From positions 1 to 56,927 of the forward strand of contig JAJRQY010000085.1 in the NCBI GenBank assembly GCA_024280015.1: 56,927 nt of DNA, given 5' to 3'. Below are positions 44,398 to 51,585 of this stretch, one piece after another. The position numbers were made by a program, and so were the translations under genes. A model generated the notes under the pieces. That model saw nothing but the letters and a program-made list of their open reading frames with translations. It was not told where the DNA came from and did no database searches. Position 1 is the stretch's first letter. The number at the start of each line of letters is the position of its first letter. Source of the stretch: Actinomycetes bacterium (GTDB taxonomy: Bacteria; Actinomycetota; Acidimicrobiia; Acidimicrobiales; SZUA-35).

Positions 44398-44817
44398 TCA
44401 CCGGGAGTCAGCAGGGACGATGAGTTTGATGGTGGGAAAGTAGGTGCGGTAGCGAGCCGTGTCGCGTGTCAGAAGTGCGAGCTCTGAAACCGCAGCGTGA
44501 GCGCCAATGAAGAAGTCAGGTAAAGCTGACGGTCGAGGGCCCTTGTTTCGTCGATAGCTGAGGAATACCTTGCCCGCCAAAAATGCGGCGGCCCACGGCA
44601 AGTCCAAGCGACGGTAGTCGGCTACTGGCAACGCATCATCCAGAGCTTCAATCTGGCTGAAGCGGGCCGAAACCTCACCATAGATGACCGGGTTGATAAA
44701 CAGGGGGCCGTCTTCAGCGGCCGCTGCTAGTGCATTGGCGGACCATGTAAGCCATGTCGCATCTTCAGTCATTACGTCCAGCAGCACATTGCTGTCGACC
44801 AGCGTCCCGTGACTCAC
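44398..44817 (-). CDS. vapC: VapC-type PIN-domain toxin of an AbrB-VapC pair
   Basis: 139 residues: PIN-domain acids in GTLVDSNVLLDVMTED, FINPVIYGEVSARF, ALPDFFIGAHAAV and LLTRDTARYRTYFP. The final block is typical of VapC paired with AbrB-type antitoxins. It would cleave a structured RNA. The start is one base from the antitoxin stop. Apparently intact. Confidence 0.9.
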   Translation of the reverse strand: MSHGTLVDSNVLLDVMTEDATWLTWSANALAAAAEDGPLFINPVIYGEVSARFSQIEALDDALPVADYRRLDLPWAAAFLAGKVFLSYRRNKGPRPSALPDFFIGAHAAVSELALLTRDTARYRTYFPTIKLIVPADSR

Positions 44818-44818
44818 A

Positions 44819-45046
44819 TCAATCTCCGCGAGTGAGGGCCATGATTTCGTCCGTGGTCAATTGCAGATCACCGCGACCTCGCAGGCGTTCGGCTAGCTGA
44901 TGACCGCGAGAGTTGGTGCTCACAACCTTCTTCAACAAGATGCCATCCTCAGCACGCTCAAACTCAACCTCAGAACCAGCCCCAAAACCCAAGGCATCTC
45001 GCAAGTCTTTCGGGATGGTGATCTGGCCCTTCTCCGTTACCTTCAT
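44819..45046 (-). CDS. vapB: AbrB/MazE-fold (SpoVT-AbrB) antitoxin
   Basis: 75 residues: MKVTEKGQITIPKDLRDALG, FGAGSEVEFERAEDGILLKK is a complete AbrB swapped-hairpin DNA-binding domain, followed by a helix and acidic tail (LAERLRGRGDLQLTTDEIM) to hold the toxin. ATG 45046 has TAGGAT six bases upstream and GTAGGA repeats around it. It is divergent from the serine-hydrolase gene at 45120. Confidence 0.9.
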   Translation of the reverse strand: MKVTEKGQITIPKDLRDALGFGAGSEVEFERAEDGILLKKVVSTNSRGHQLAERLRGRGDLQLTTDEIMALTRGD

Positions 45047-46316: not shown

Positions 46317-46359
46317 GCGCGCGCAGTAACGCGCGCTTGTCAGACCGTCTGACTAGGGT
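46317..46359 (+). promoter_or_regulatory. Two palindromes and a -10 upstream of the RHH/methyltransferase operon
   Basis: GCGCGCG (46317-46323) and CGCGCGC (46330-46336) form a 7-bp stem with a 6-base loop. GTCAGAC and GTCTGAC (46339-46353) form a 7-bp palindrome around one C. TAGGGT (46354-46359) follows directly and ends nine bases before ATG 46369. The second palindrome is a probable operator; the first may be an operator or a terminator hairpin for the esterase gene, though it has no T-run. Confidence 0.55.
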
Positions 46360-46368
46360 GTGCGTCTT

Positions 46369-46620
46369 ATGGCCCGCCCCCGAATCCACTCCGAAGAACG
46401 AGTCGCCACCGCTGTTCGCCTACCCGTTCCTCTACGCGACGAACTACACCGGGTGGCGGCCAGTCGCGACGTGTCGGTCAACTACCTCATCAACCGAGCA
46501 ATCGAGAACCTGCTCGAACAACTGAGCACCCAAGCAGACCCGCTTCTGCTGGACTTGACAACCGGCCAGTCAGCTCTGCCTGCACCAGCCTTGCACCTGA
46601 CCGATGGCGCCAATCCATGA
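46369..46620 (+). CDS. Ribbon-helix-helix (CopG/Arc-type) DNA-binding protein
   Basis: 83 residues from ATG 46369: MARPRIHSEERVATAVRLPV, PLRDELHRVAASRDVSVNYL, INRAIENLLEQL is the ribbon strand and two helices. The last 30 residues are flexible. It is translationally coupled (ATGA) to the methyltransferase gene. A role as controller of the operon, binding the GTCAGAC palindrome upstream, is inferred; restriction-modification systems usually use helix-turn-helix controllers instead. It could alternatively be an antitoxin-like protein, but no toxin follows. Confidence 0.82.
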   Translation: MARPRIHSEERVATAVRLPVPLRDELHRVAASRDVSVNYLINRAIENLLEQLSTQADPLLLDLTTGQSALPAPALHLTDGANP

Positions 46621-48062
46621 CAACTCCAGCCAAGAAACGCGGCACCTCAACCCCCAACTTCGGCTCATCCAAGCGAGAGAGCCATGATGCCTCCGGGTTT
46701 TACGATCGTTTTACCGCACCCGACGTATCGGCCGAAACCGAGATCAATCAGTCGCCAGTCATCAACACCATCCTCCACCAAGATGCCCGCAAGATCGACG
46801 AACTGCTGCCCGCCAACTCCGTCGCCCTAGTCGTCACCTCGCCTCCATACTTCGCCGGCAAAGAGTACGAAGAAACCTTGGGCGAAAACGGAGTACCGGC
46901 CAGCTACTTCGAGTATCTGGAACTACTCCGAGACGTTTTTGCTGCCTGCAAAACCGTGCTCGAACCCGGCGGGCGAATCGCCGTCAATGTGGCCAACCTC
47001 GGGCGACGCCCCTACCGGTCCTTGTCCGCCGACATCACCATGATCCTGCAGGACCTTGGCCTGTTGATGCGGGGCGAAGTTATCTGGTGGAAGGGTCGAG
47101 CCGCCGGTGGATCATGCGCCTGGGGATCATTCCAACGCCCAACCAATCCGGTTATTCGTGACGTCACCGAACGAGTCATCATTGCCAGCAAGGGCCGTTT
47201 CGATCGGGCTCTCACCCCCAAGCAACGCCTGGCCAAGGGGCTTCCATCAACCGCCAGCATTTCACGGGATGAGTTCCTGGAAGCAACAACGGACCTATGG
47301 GAACTGCCACCGGCAAGTGCCACCAGCGTTGGTCACCCTGCACCCTTCCCAATCGAGCTTCCCCAACGGCTGATCGAGCTTTACACCTATGAAGATGACC
47401 TGATACTCGATCCGTTCATGGGGGCGGGAACAACCGGCATTGCTGCAGTTCGCACCAGTCGAAGCTATGTAGGTTTCGAAACTGATCAGGCCTACATCGA
47501 CTTATCCAACCAAAGAATTGAAGCCGAACAAGCCCAGCGGCAATCGCCTGATCATGCCACCACTGGTCAAAGCCAAGTTCAGTTGCCAGCGTCCAAACTC
47601 GAAGCCGACGGTCCGGTAGAGGACCAGCTGACAGTTGCGGTACGCGAGGGTAGGCAGGCCAAATATCTGGCCCAGGTCTTACTTGAGCAGTCTGGCTTTA
47701 CTGACCTTCGCACTGATGTGAAGTTCCGCAAGCTTGGTATCGAACTCGGTTTGGTCGCTACCGACCAGGGTGGCCAAGACTGGGCCTTTGATGTTTCTGG
47801 CGGGCTAACGACCAGTCGAGCCGGCTTGAAACAGACCGACAGTCTTTGGCGGTCATTGGGTAAGGCCGGGGTACTGCACGCCAGCGAGCATGCTTTGCCT
47901 CTTGTGTTACTGACCACCGACAAGCCGGCACGTCGCTCCCCCGGAGATCTGGCTCTCAAAGCCGTAGTCGGTCCCGAGCTGCCAATTCAGGACGTGATTG
48001 ACCTGCTGGACCCCGCCGACCAAGCTCGGTTAGCGGGGTATGGCCAAGCCAAGCAAGGTTGA
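46617..48062 (+). CDS. Beta-class DNA methyltransferase with extra C-terminal domain
   Basis: 481 residues. The methyltransferase core (45-300) has motif IV VVTSPPYFAGKEYEE (TSPPY, 74-78) before motif I LILDPFMGAGTTGIAAV (265-273), the beta-class order of N4-cytosine or N6-adenine enzymes; FPIELPQRLIELYTYEDD is motif X. Residues 310-475 are extra: after a low-complexity linker comes FRKLGIELGLVATDQGGQDW, AFDVSGGLTTSRAGLKQTD, LGKAGVL and LVLLTTDKP, an alpha/beta unit resembling a degenerate restriction-nuclease fold. It begins 4 bases inside the RHH gene and overlaps the next gene by TTGA. I take it as the modification enzyme of a restriction-modification-like operon. Confidence 0.88.
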   Translation: MTTPAKKRGTSTPNFGSSKRESHDASGFYDRFTAPDVSAETEINQSPVINTILHQDARKIDELLPANSVALVVTSPPYFAGKEYEETLGENGVPASYFEYLELLRDVFAACKTVLEPGGRIAVNVANLGRRPYRSLSADITMILQDLGLLMRGEVIWWKGRAAGGSCAWGSFQRPTNPVIRDVTERVIIASKGRFDRALTPKQRLAKGLPSTASISRDEFLEATTDLWELPPASATSVGHPAPFPIELPQRLIELYTYEDDLILDPFMGAGTTGIAAVRTSRSYVGFETDQAYIDLSNQRIEAEQAQRQSPDHATTGQSQVQLPASKLEADGPVEDQLTVAVREGRQAKYLAQVLLEQSGFTDLRTDVKFRKLGIELGLVATDQGGQDWAFDVSGGLTTSRAGLKQTDSLWRSLGKAGVLHASEHALPLVLLTTDKPARRSPGDLALKAVVGPELPIQDVIDLLDPADQARLAGYGQAKQG

Positions 48063-49132
48063 TTGCTGTGGCCACCGATCGAACACTCATCACCGAGCTG
48101 GCAACAGGCCTGGGCATGCTGGGCCGAGACGACACCGGAGCCCTCATTGCTGAGCGCCCCCCGGTCTTTGCCAACCTGAATGCCGCCGACTGGGACCGAC
48201 TCGAGGGCCTATGGCTTAGTGGCGGCTATGGGGCAGAATTTGAGACTGCACTCGACAATGGTCGGGCATTTCTGGAATCACCCGATGCGTTGAATGGCCG
48301 TGTGCCTCGGATCATCGAGTGGATTGGAGGGCGCAATGCTCCCGGTGATGAGGTGGTTCCCGCTGACCTACGGGTCGATCACGTTTACCTGATTAGTTGC
48401 AAGTATCTGTCGAAGATCTTGCACAACCTGAGTCCATCGCGTCTGATGGAGGGTTTGCTGTCACGGGAAGCATCGACCGACTCGACCAATTGGTATGAGC
48501 GGGTCGCCCCCATCGAATTCCAAGCGCTCTACCACGCTTGTGTACAGGCCAACAGTTGGTCAGATCAGCTCCCGCAGATGGTGAGTGAGCTTGACCGAGA
48601 GATGCGACACGAGGTTGCTCATGCCCTCAAGGGAGAGTGGCCAGCCGAGGCCAAGCCCTTGTACTTGGAGTTGTGTTCGGTGGTGAGTGAACGCTCGGCC
48701 AAGATCTGGCGGAACAATGTGGTGTCGGGGTCAATGGAGCGGTTGACGTGGCGGATGCTGCGGATCGGGTCGGCTCCGTATTTCATCCTGGGTTCCAAGA
48801 AGGGTGGTGTGAACGAGCCAGCATCAATGCGGCTGCGGGTGGCGACCCCTTGGGATTTGCGACAGCAGTACGAGACCAAGGGTTTGCAGATTGATTCCCA
48901 AGAGGGAGGCCAACCGCGGGTCGGTTGGCAGGTTGTGTACAGGAACCGTTTCAGTGGCAACGAGGTGCGGGTATGCGGGCATGTCGAGGTTCGTTGGAGC
49001 CATGGTCGCTTCGGAAACCCACCCGAAGCCAAGGTCTATCTGGATACGCCTCCCGAAGACGTGCCCGGCTACATCCCTCTGGCCAGTCCCGCGCCGACGC
49101 GCGTAGTTCAGCAACGAACCTTGTGGAGCTGA
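48059..49132 (+). CDS. Possible restriction endonuclease partner of the methyltransferase
   Basis: 357 residues, not assigned to a family. The N-terminal half contains GAEFETALDNGRAFLES (Glu62), then PADLRVDHVYLISCKYLSKI (Asp103 to Lys115), an arrangement like E...PD...xxK of PD-(D/E)xK nucleases, with Ser in place of the second acid. The C-terminal half has strands such as GSAPYFILGSKKGG and VGWQVVYRNRFSG. The start is TTG 48059, overlapping the methyltransferase stop as TTGA; GTG 48068 is possible. Position last in an RHH-methyltransferase operon is the main reason for the endonuclease call. It could be a specificity or other nuclease-associated protein. Confidence 0.6.
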   Translation: MIAVATDRTLITELATGLGMLGRDDTGALIAERPPVFANLNAADWDRLEGLWLSGGYGAEFETALDNGRAFLESPDALNGRVPRIIEWIGGRNAPGDEVVPADLRVDHVYLISCKYLSKILHNLSPSRLMEGLLSREASTDSTNWYERVAPIEFQALYHACVQANSWSDQLPQMVSELDREMRHEVAHALKGEWPAEAKPLYLELCSVVSERSAKIWRNNVVSGSMERLTWRMLRIGSAPYFILGSKKGGVNEPASMRLRVATPWDLRQQYETKGLQIDSQEGGQPRVGWQVVYRNRFSGNEVRVCGHVEVRWSHGRFGNPPEAKVYLDTPPEDVPGYIPLASPAPTRVVQQRTLWS

Positions 49133-49177: not shown

Positions 49178-49708
49178 CTACGAAGTTTGAAGAACGCGGT
49201 CGGCGTAGCTAACAAATTGCCGTGCAATATCACAGGCCGGGTCCCGATCTTTTGTACTCACATAGGACTTGAGCACCGCGGCCAACGCACCGGCCAGAAA
49301 CTCTGGCAACACACCATCATCATCGATACCTAAGGCCTCAAGATGCTCCTTCCAACCGTGGACCAAGCTCTGGTGAAACAGAGCAGCAATCTCTCCCAGC
49401 ACTGGCTGGGTAAGCAGTGGCCGCAAGATGTCGGCCATCTCATCAACATGCTCAAATAGCGGACCAAGGTCGAGACCAGCGGCATCGGGATGGCGAAAGG
49501 GCACCGTTAGCTCGGGGATGGAAGCGGTGAGGAGATCAAACTTGTTGTCGTAGTGGGCGTAGAACGCCGACCGACTCACACCGGAACGGTCGAGGATGTC
49601 CTGCACCCGAATCTTGTCCCAACGCTGGGACTGGATCAGCTCGAAGAGTTCGCCGACCAGCAATGACTTGGTTCGTTGCACTCGGGGGTCAGTCTTGGTC
49701 TCGTTCAA
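49178..49708 (-). CDS. TetR family transcriptional regulator
   Basis: 176 residues: TetR helix-turn-helix at about 10-55 (TKSLLVGELFELIQSQRWDK, VQDILDRSGVSRSAFYAHYD), then a ligand-binding helical domain. Start TTG 49708. It is divergent from the small membrane protein/ABC exporter operon; a palindrome (TTCTGT...ACAGAA) lies between. Likely represses that exporter operon. Effector unknown. Confidence 0.85.
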   Translation of the reverse strand: MNETKTDPRVQRTKSLLVGELFELIQSQRWDKIRVQDILDRSGVSRSAFYAHYDNKFDLLTASIPELTVPFRHPDAAGLDLGPLFEHVDEMADILRPLLTQPVLGEIAALFHQSLVHGWKEHLEALGIDDDGVLPEFLAGALAAVLKSYVSTKDRDPACDIARQFVSYADRVLQTS

Positions 49709-49811: not shown

Positions 49812-50042
49812 ATGACGTTCGATAACTCTCCCCCACCGACCACATCCACATGGACCACGATCAAGGATCACTTACCCATCTTCATTCTGGGTGGGGGTCT
49901 CATCGCCTTCTTCATTGGAAGCCATGCTGCCTCAACCGCGATTGTGGCTGGCGCCGCCTTCCATGTCATCGTCGGAATCATTGCTCTAGTTGCCACCGGG
50001 TTGCGGCAACGACACTCCAAGAGCGCCGGGGCCGAACAATGA
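49812..50042 (+). CDS. Small two-helix membrane protein
   Basis: 76 residues from ATG 49812: a short hydrophilic N-terminus (TFDNSPPPTTSTWTTIKDHL), two hydrophobic segments (PIFILGGGLIAFFIGSHAAS and IVAGAAFHVIVGIIALVATG) and a basic tail. The TGA overlaps the ATPase ATG by 4 bases (ATGA), so it is the first gene of the ABC exporter operon. Probably an accessory membrane subunit; no family recognised. Confidence 0.65.
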   Translation: MTFDNSPPPTTSTWTTIKDHLPIFILGGGLIAFFIGSHAASTAIVAGAAFHVIVGIIALVATGLRQRHSKSAGAEQ

Positions 50043-50779
50043 GAGCTACCTCTGCTCCGGCCATCTCCGTCGATGGTCTCACCAAGGACTTCGCTGGTGT
50101 GCGAGCCGTCGACAACGCCAGCTTCGAGATTCCCTTTGGCGCGGTCACCGGATTCATCGGTGGCAACGGTTCTGGCAAGACCACCACCATGCGCATGCTG
50201 CTCGGACTCACCATTCCCAGCTCGGGTCGGGCCCGGATCAATGGACAGTCCTACAAGTCGCTGTCCGAACCCCGCCAATCGGTTGGTGCGGTTCTAAATC
50301 GGTTGGGTGCCCACCCAGGTCTCACCGCAATCCAGCATCTTGAGATCGTTGCTGCCTGCGGCCAGATCAATCCCTCCACCGTTGCACCAACACTTGACCT
50401 AGTTGGCCTTGGTGAGACCGAGGGTCGCAAGCTCGGCACCTTTTCGACCGGTATGAAACAGCGACTCGCCTTGGCTTCGGCACTGCTGACCGACCCGAAG
50501 ATCCTCATCCTTGACGAGCCTGCAAGTGGCCTTGATCCCGGCGGTATCCGCTGGCTTCGCAACCTCCTTCGAGACAAGGCAGACCAAGGGGCAGCGATAT
50601 TCATCTCCACCCACCAGCTGGCCGAACTGGCCGAACTCGTTGATCACATCGTCGTCATTGACCGTGGCCACATTTTGGCTTCTGAATCCGCCGACTCCCT
50701 ACTGGCTCGAACCAAGCAAGACCGACTCGAAGAAGCAGTTTTCACCCTCACCAACGATCAATACAAGGAAACACCATGA
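50039..50779 (+). CDS. ABC transporter ATP-binding protein (BcrA/NatA-like)
   Basis: 246 residues: Walker A GGNGSGKTTTMRMLLG, signature LGTFSTGMKQRLALASALL, Walker B KILILDEPASGLDPGG, and the switch His in FISTHQLAEL. This DrrA/BcrA-type pattern drives ABC exporters of antibiotics or lipids. Coupled to the small membrane protein (ATGA) and to the permease (ATGA at 50776-50779). Confidence 0.9.
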   Translation: MRATSAPAISVDGLTKDFAGVRAVDNASFEIPFGAVTGFIGGNGSGKTTTMRMLLGLTIPSSGRARINGQSYKSLSEPRQSVGAVLNRLGAHPGLTAIQHLEIVAACGQINPSTVAPTLDLVGLGETEGRKLGTFSTGMKQRLALASALLTDPKILILDEPASGLDPGGIRWLRNLLRDKADQGAAIFISTHQLAELAELVDHIVVIDRGHILASESADSLLARTKQDRLEEAVFTLTNDQYKETP

Positions 50780-51585
50780 CAGGCAGTAGCCCATCCAACC
50801 TCCGATCCCGTCCAACAGTCGATTCACTCGAGGCACCAGACAGACCATCAGTAGGACTTGGGCCAAGCCTCTCCGCTGAACGACTAACTGCCCTGGCCAC
50901 CCCGGCGGCAAGGTTGCTCCTCGTTGCGTCGGTTGTGATGTCTGCCATCTCCGCAGTAGCCAATCTCAGCGCAGTGCAAGACATCTCCACTGACGATTCC
51001 ATCCGATTGGCCATGCACAGCTCGACTGTTGCCACCCTCATCTTCTCGGTTCTTGCCGGGCTGTACTCCGCCACAACCGATCACCGGTTTGGGATTGTCG
51101 ACCAGCGACTTCTTGGTCAGCCACGACGAGGAGTGGTTCTTGGCGCAAAAGCGACAATGACAGCCATGCTCGGCCTTGTCTACGGAGTGCTCGGGGCAGC
51201 TACCGCGGTCCTTGCTGCTGGCGGGTTCTATTGGGCGAAAGGAGTTTCCTTCGACCCAACATCACCCCTGGTTGTTCGGACATTGGTCGGTGTTGTACTG
51301 GCCGCGCCAATGTTTGCGGTGATTGGAGTGGCCGTCGGGACCATCGTGCGCAACCAACCAATCGCCATTGGCGGAACCCTCGCCTGGCTACTCATCATTG
51401 AGCCAACAGCAATTGTTGGCCTGCCAAGCATTGGTGGGTGGCTACCTGGGGCCGCTGGCCTGGCCCTCACCTACGGTCCAGACCAAGCCCTGCTCAGCCA
51501 GGTGACGGGTGGAGCAGTACTGGCGGGATACACCGCGGTCGCCTACCACCTCGCCACCCATTTCTTTGCTCGAGCCGACATCTAG
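50776..51585 (+). CDS. ABC transporter permease (ABC-2 type)
   Basis: 269 residues with a 40-residue hydrophilic start and six hydrophobic segments (RLLLVASVVMSAISAVANLS, VATLIFSVLAGLYSATTDH, MTAMLGLVYGVLGAATAVLA, LVGVVLAAPMFAVIGVAVG and two more), as in BcrB/DrrB-like exporters. The loop DHRFGIVDQRLLGQPRRG is the usual coupling-helix region. It forms a transporter with the preceding ATPase. Substrate unknown; TetR control suggests toxic compounds. Confidence 0.83.
   Translation: MTGSSPSNLRSRPTVDSLEAPDRPSVGLGPSLSAERLTALATPAARLLLVASVVMSAISAVANLSAVQDISTDDSIRLAMHSSTVATLIFSVLAGLYSATTDHRFGIVDQRLLGQPRRGVVLGAKATMTAMLGLVYGVLGAATAVLAAGGFYWAKGVSFDPTSPLVVRTLVGVVLAAPMFAVIGVAVGTIVRNQPIAIGGTLAWLLIIEPTAIVGLPSIGGWLPGAAGLALTYGPDQALLSQVTGGAVLAGYTAVAYHLATHFFARADI

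Follow-up and report, generated by a model that had tools for sequence, protein, structure and literature searches.

The stretch analysed here, referred to as the window, comprises 56,927 nucleotides of an Actinomycetes bacterium (Acidimicrobiia; Acidimicrobiales; SZUA-35) and corresponds to contig JAJRQY010000085.1 of assembly GCA_024280015.1. It carries three plus-strand genes in line, RHH, MT and P3, which an earlier note, made from the letters of the DNA, had proposed as a restriction-modification (R-M)-like system with a ribbon-helix-helix controller. MT was identified as a class-wide DNA methyltransferase (MTase) with a C-terminal domain (MTC) that is predicted to be a degenerate nuclease, and P3 as the candidate restriction endonuclease (REase) behind it. 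The features are given below (aa, amino acids; AdoMet, S-adenosylmethionine).

46369 to 46620 (stop included), plus strand: RHH, small ribbon-helix-helix (Arc/CopG-like) protein, 83 aa, ATG start; weak Pfam and PHROG matches.
46617 to 48062, plus strand: MT, beta-class amino-DNA-methyltransferase, 481 aa; overlaps RHH by ATGA, matches to PF01555 and PADLOC MTase_II.
46836 to 46850, plus strand: MT catalytic motif IV, TSPPY, residues 74-78; the whole motif is identical across the 28 aligned MTs.
47409 to 47435, plus strand: MT AdoMet motif I, DPFMGAGTT, residues 265-273; D265, P266, G269 and G271 invariant in 28 of 28.
47553 to 48056, plus strand: MTC, predicted PD-(D/E)XK fold with degenerate active site (FDVSG replaces the ExK strand); AlphaFold2 model, VIA-align and alignment.
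48068 to 49132, plus strand: P3, candidate restriction endonuclease, 354 aa from GTG 48068 (357 aa from TTG 48059); AlphaFold2 model, PADLOC motif and distribution.
48359 to 48403, plus strand: P3 motif 1, P101-x-D103-x-R-x-D107-x5-S-C-K115; residues shown invariant in 80 of 80 relatives.
48986 to 49033, plus strand: P3 motif 2, E310-x-R-W-S-H-G...P322-E-A-K325; invariant in 80 of 80, E310 and A324 in 79 of 80.

The three genes had been described as joined by ATGA and TTGA overlaps. The genes themselves and the ATGA overlap of RHH and MT were recovered. The TTGA overlap of MT and P3 at 48059 is probably not a real start, since in many relatives (e.g. L062, L072, L073 and L074; L denotes loci and G genomes) the earliest possible P3 start aligns at window residue 4, which is GTG 48068 with AAGG 9 nt upstream. 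No gene begins at 46317, where the system had been placed to start; the ATG of RHH is at 46369.

MT was matched to Pfam N6_N4_Mtase (PF01555) at E 1.3e-33 and to PADLOC MTase_II at 2.6e-80, and its best solved-structure match by sequence was the putative methylase 2zie (1.4e-30). The NCBIfam CcrM model also matched (E 1.4e-18), scoring 67 bits where its cut-off is 830. In beta-class enzymes, motif IV (S/D/N-P-P-Y/F) precedes motif I (FxGxG). MT was assigned to this class because TSPPY (74-78) stands ahead of DPFMGAG (265-271). With the PF01555 match and both motifs retained in all 28 aligned sequences, MT has the intact catalytic motifs of an R-M MTase gene. S-P-P-Y is more usual in N4-cytosine enzymes; as judged from the sequence, the modified group on DNA may be cytosine N4 or adenine N6.

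For the distribution of MT, a profile of 28 MTs, every one from a P3-bearing locus, was used. With a threshold of E<=1e-60, 241 of the 296 class genomes contained a relative. Of 198 phylum genomes 31 did, 17 of them outside the class and all of these in three families. A quick tree of 76 MTs contained 52 changes of family label (minimum 38, shuffled mean 62.7). The tree follows family labels only partly, and exchange of MT within the class is therefore likely. MT is a class-wide enzyme and not merely a mobile R-M part. MT core and MTC also occurred as neighbouring separate pieces (L083:3480-5308, two open frames; G674:C138; G675:C106), with no single clear fusion. Little methylation work on this class was found in the literature searched; the part of a metaepigenomic study (PMC6329791) that treats the Acidimicrobiia draft genome BS4 gives no methylated motif and no MTase, at 6.67x coverage.

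P3 relatives were found with an alignment query; a single-protein P3 query of the genome contigs gave no relative. P3 was present in 49 of the 296 class genomes (38 of 210 of good quality) and in 9 of 396 genomes of a phylum-wide draw, 7 in the class and 2 outside (one of these a 34-position piece). For comparison of loci, 40 class-sample P3 regions were taken from the 48 other P3-bearing genomes. In a second scan the best 80 of 256 stretches were kept, mostly from metagenome-assembled genomes (MAGs) labelled as Acidimicrobi- or Actinomycet- type. The two sets overlap in that they share assemblies; L091 and L023, for example, show the same genes. The alignments comprised 39 of 41 rows for P3 (A1; two split copies left out) and 28 of 35 for MT (A2).

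All 49 P3-bearing class genomes carried MT (hypergeometric 1.5e-5, no kinship correction). MT lay within the locus in 35 of 40 class-sample and in 54 of 80 second-scan P3 loci. Of the 26 second-scan loci with no MT in reach, L111 and L114 were left out; 23 of the 24 genomes tested had MT elsewhere. One of these 24, G673, is apparently identical with assembly G087 of the class sample, as contig and coordinates of MT agree. MT and P3 distances correlated (r 0.64, 36 loci; reached in 0 of 2000 permutations), for which shared ancestry alone could suffice. On the MT tree, at least 17 changes in P3 presence are needed. In G260 and G127 P3 is broken across reading frames while MT stays readable, and in G074 the P3 match stopped at residue 225 beside a readable MT; assembly error is possible in these cases.

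The earlier note had seen a possible D...K nuclease core in P3. Such a core is present (P101-x-D103...S113-C-K115), together with a second one (E310...K325). The SCK triplet may resemble that of enzymes of the NgoMIV/Cfr10I type. Motif 2 falls within the region that PADLOC's REase_II model PDLC03456 (387 positions) matches. Model and P3 have in common the C-terminal motif ExRWSHGxF..PE(A/S)K, its approximate position and a similar protein length, but the motif alone matches, and the rest of the protein is without visible similarity. PDLC03456 weakly matched 74 of 80 P3 relatives at E<=1 (best 2e-4; window protein 0.084). It also matched a fragment with motif 2 on a viral contig (L141, 88-1680); a C5-methyltransferase gene follows this fragment after 15 bp. 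Searches with this fragment itself gave no further relatives; of three DNA patterns made for the motif fragment, the first re-found L141 alone and the other two found nothing. A search across the phylum with PDLC03456 gave 0 of 296 genomes and also 0 of 14 controls, and is uninformative. No family in Pfam, NCBIfam or PHROG matched P3 with a meaningful score, and a known housekeeping family, which had been named beforehand as the outcome to watch for, was rejected for P3 on these grounds.

The C-terminal domain of MT had been called unusual, and rightly so: in the AlphaFold2 model (46 sequences, predicted local distance difference test, pLDDT, 84.4) it is a PD-(D/E)XK domain with a degenerate site. 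VIA-align gave 31 of 1000 chains at Z>=8, and most of the listed entries were titled restriction enzymes or CRISPR-linked nucleases. Z was 10.7 for Cdn1, 9.9 for BsoBI (122 residues, 2.8 A), 9.9 for the XisH-family protein 2inb, 9.6 for BstEII and 8.2 for SgrAI; unrelated response-regulator rows reached 7.4. Foldseek was weaker than VIA, with no match at E<=0.001 and a best value of 1.1e-3 (SfsA). The predicted fold is like that of BsoBI, BstEII, SgrAI and the XisH family, and MTC differs from these in its active site. In an alignment of 45 of 51 MTC stretches plus the window, none of the 46 sequences has the catalytic Lys (S stands there in 36, A in 6, T in 2, and Y and C in one each), and the first Asp was retained in 7 of them. 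The model therefore has the PD-(D/E)XK fold and lacks the catalytic D + (D/E)-x-K, and MTC is predicted to be a dead nuclease. MTC was found in 122 of 296 class genomes, in 44 of 49 with P3 and in 78 of 247 without (Fisher 1.4e-14, no kinship correction), a contrast that may be inflated because the profile was built from P3-bearing loci and favours P3-bearing genomes.

A free-standing relative of MTC, termed Nuc, was found behind MT in six loci (E 1e-18 to 1e-26). The order was MT-MTC-X-Nuc in L162, L214, L215 and L201 (genomes G084, G100, G191 and G468) and MT-MTC-Nuc in L190 and L216 (genomes G279 and G068). The Nuc site reads GVE(I/V)D...WFEYKG; D46 and E60-Y-K62 were invariant in five of five aligned sequences, and the same D and EYK are present in the sixth. 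No meaningful Pfam match was obtained for the five Nuc proteins scanned. A Nuc search of 188 class genomes gave three intact genes and one fragment (G072); the remaining rows were MTC domains inside MT genes. None of the five class genomes with intact Nuc has P3, which is too few for a statistic. P3 and Nuc occupy the same operon slot behind MT.

Gene X is a small gene of about 105 aa that lies between MT and P3 in many loci (e.g. L032:6653-6964, plus 20 other gap loci), and the X ahead of Nuc in four loci is the same small gene. It gave no Pfam match for the four proteins tested. The MT-P3 gap was also considered as the place of a tRNA, which was rejected: none was found in 21 loci, and the gap holds X. 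X was present in 15 of 35 MT-linked P3 loci versus 4 of 35 MT loci of P3-less genomes, the latter picked mostly among high-scoring MTs. It lies 3' of MT with or without P3 and was found outside the class too; the window locus is without X.

On balance, we favour a type II-like R-M unit in which P3 is a restriction enzyme built on the class-wide MT. P3 is probably a nuclease, of a fold not recognised here. What was observed is the gene order, the co-occurrence, the predicted domain fold, the loss of the MTC catalytic lysine and the shared slot. The genome comparisons thus sustain the description as R-M-like (MT present in 49 of 49 P3-bearing genomes of the class sample, a slot common to P3 and a PD-(D/E)XK relative, the REase_II motif), and its biochemistry is putative. 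Linkage and co-occurrence of MT with a candidate endonuclease were seen; the putative identity of P3 as a nuclease is based on the short motif and the shared slot. In this scheme MT would methylate its site on an exocyclic amino group, either cytosine N4 or adenine N6. MTC, as a dead nuclease domain, would probably help DNA binding or nuclease docking. P3 would be an exchangeable effector that may cut the site of MT, presumably shared by both, when unmethylated. In other genomes the free-standing PD-(D/E)XK nuclease Nuc, related to MTC, would replace P3. The roles of MTC, X and RHH are likewise putative.

Several results weigh against P3 as a restriction enzyme of this kind. The PDLC03456 match is short, with 21-31 residues in the 9 matching of 10 members scanned and 22 in the window P3. 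The AlphaFold2 model of P3 (80 sequences, pLDDT 92.8, predicted template modelling score, pTM, 0.88) had no clear match to a solved fold in the PDB (Foldseek best E 0.078, VIA best Z 3.8), and the sequence matched nothing in the PDB at E<=10; the label 'nuclease' is therefore not fold-based, although the lack of a match is no exclusion of a PD-(D/E)XK fold for P3. Five P3-bearing genomes had no MTC match (G004, G134, G203 with a short contig, G268 and G283), and G677 has P3 without MT at E<=1e-30. MT is mostly found without P3 (192 of 241 MT-bearing genomes) and therefore has a role of its own. Moreover, ten P3 genes without MT nearby (L112, L122, L127, L130-L132, L134, L136, L138 and L139) are followed by one and the same gene (465-473 residues), which is not what a typical mobile REase would show. 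We take this gene to be a putative SufB. The genomes are MAGs, including four labelled Microthrix, and each has MT elsewhere. Such a constant neighbour suggests that inheritance has long been vertical. In L100 this gene stands behind MT-X-P3 too, and MT may therefore have been lost from that site.

Another explanation takes MT as a lineage-wide epigenetic MTase of CcrM-like distribution, with P3 as an MT-dependent non-nuclease partner, e.g. a methylation reader or regulator. The wide occurrence of MT, mostly without P3, the constant gene downstream of the ten P3 genes and the absence of a clear match to P3 among solved nuclease folds agree with this explanation. We nevertheless consider it unlikely, if worth keeping in view, because the motif of P3 is common to the REase_II model and to the fragment beside an unrelated C5-methyltransferase, the slot is also used by an ExK nuclease relative, and P3 is patchy and in some genomes split.

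The P3 model consists mostly of strands from residue 241 onward, which would also fit a restriction glycosylase or other base-removing enzyme, not a phosphodiesterase, comparable to the HALFPIPE enzyme R.PabI. Such enzymes exist, as parts of PMC5059719 and PMC10273834 describe. For P3 this is very unlikely: motif 2 holds an E-x-K, and PabI was absent among the best 50 matches of either PDB structure search, which does not exclude PabI. Structure matches of P3 at probability 1.00 were obtained in BFVD with the viral proteins A0A6J7XKW6, A0A8D9C8Y9 and A0A1J0F9H5 (E 9.4e-8, 9.5e-7 and 1.3e-4; but TM-scores by query of only 0.41-0.49), to which no function is assigned.

RHH had been put forward as the controller that defines the layout. 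Its Pfam matches were weak and all under the cut-offs (best Antitox_RHH, E 0.0095); the PHROG match was to an Arc-like repressor (1.4e-5). Among 130 MT loci, a count that takes in duplicates and the window, 20 had an RHH relative 5' of MT. RHH was ahead of MT in 3 of 35 MT-linked class-sample P3 loci, in 1 of 5 MT loci from genomes with P3 elsewhere and in 1 of 35 MT loci of P3-less genomes; RHH, MT and P3 were together in 14 of 80 second-scan P3 loci. As a conserved controller RHH was rejected, being too rare around MT, and the proposed layout did not hold. Of the three genes expected to stay together, MT and P3 do and RHH does not. RHH is a minor, variable and optional upstream partner of MT, and incidental to the system. 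C proteins of R-M systems bind via a helix-turn-helix (HTH), according to a passage of PMC3874152; RHH is not of this type, its best matches being weak ones to RHH/Arc-type families.

The adjoining genes include one further pair.

44398 to 45046, minus strand: probable toxin-antitoxin pair, MazE/AbrB-type antitoxin (8.6e-15) and PIN-domain protein (7.8e-8); family matches.

This pair had been reported as adjoining and was confirmed, while the accessory surroundings described with it found little support beyond the pair: the other neighbours scanned belong to ordinary families (beta-lactamase-like, NAD(P)H-hydrate dehydratase, TetR), and a tRNA search of the window found none. A dedicated RHH-controlled R-M system RHH-MT-P3, gained on a mobile island as the earlier note proposed, would draw on this pair and on the 14 second-scan loci with all three genes. 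We regard it as the least probable of the explanations considered, with hardly a chance of being right, because RHH is rare around MT and also occurs without P3 beside it (L172, L189), MT is class-wide, and P3 had no relatives in phage and plasmid collections at E<=0.01. Weak plasmid matches of P3 (E<=10) were taken as chance; the annotated ones among the 30 listed lie in topoisomerase genes. Downstream of P3, a TetR-type regulator (49178-49708, minus strand) adjoins a plus-strand stretch (49850-51585) that reads, from its sequence, as an ATP-binding cassette transporter ATPase and a membrane protein.

A more far-reaching form of the favoured R-M reading is that P3 founds a new structural class of REase and that the locus is a modular platform, in which a class-wide MT with a dead nuclease domain is combined with interchangeable effectors (P3 or a live MTC relative) in one slot, with or without the shared small adaptor X. 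We put this forward tentatively, at slightly less than an even chance. Restriction enzymes fall into few folds, as stated in a part of PMC2630997. By its distribution and partners, P3 resembles a DNA-cutting defence enzyme; should it be one, a novel kind of restriction enzyme may be at hand, and a new fold, if true, would be notable and possibly useful. A class-wide MT that keeps a dead nuclease domain while its effector is swapped would, if true, show how restriction-modification and stable epigenetic methylation can pass into one another.

Compared with type II R-M systems, which have a separate MTase and REase, the locus is alike in that a modification gene is followed by a candidate nuclease gene, never found without MT in the class sample. 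It differs in that the MTase is class-wide, the candidate REase is exchangeable and of unrecognised fold, and the MTase carries a PD-(D/E)XK domain predicted to be dead. Like the CcrM-like orphan MTases, MT is of the beta class, is present in most genomes of a class and is mostly without P3. As to lineage conservation without a linked REase, the mark of an orphan MTase, 241 of 296 genomes have MT and 49 have P3. Unlike the CcrM-like enzymes, MT is accompanied by a candidate nuclease in one genome out of six, and its tree follows family labels only partly.

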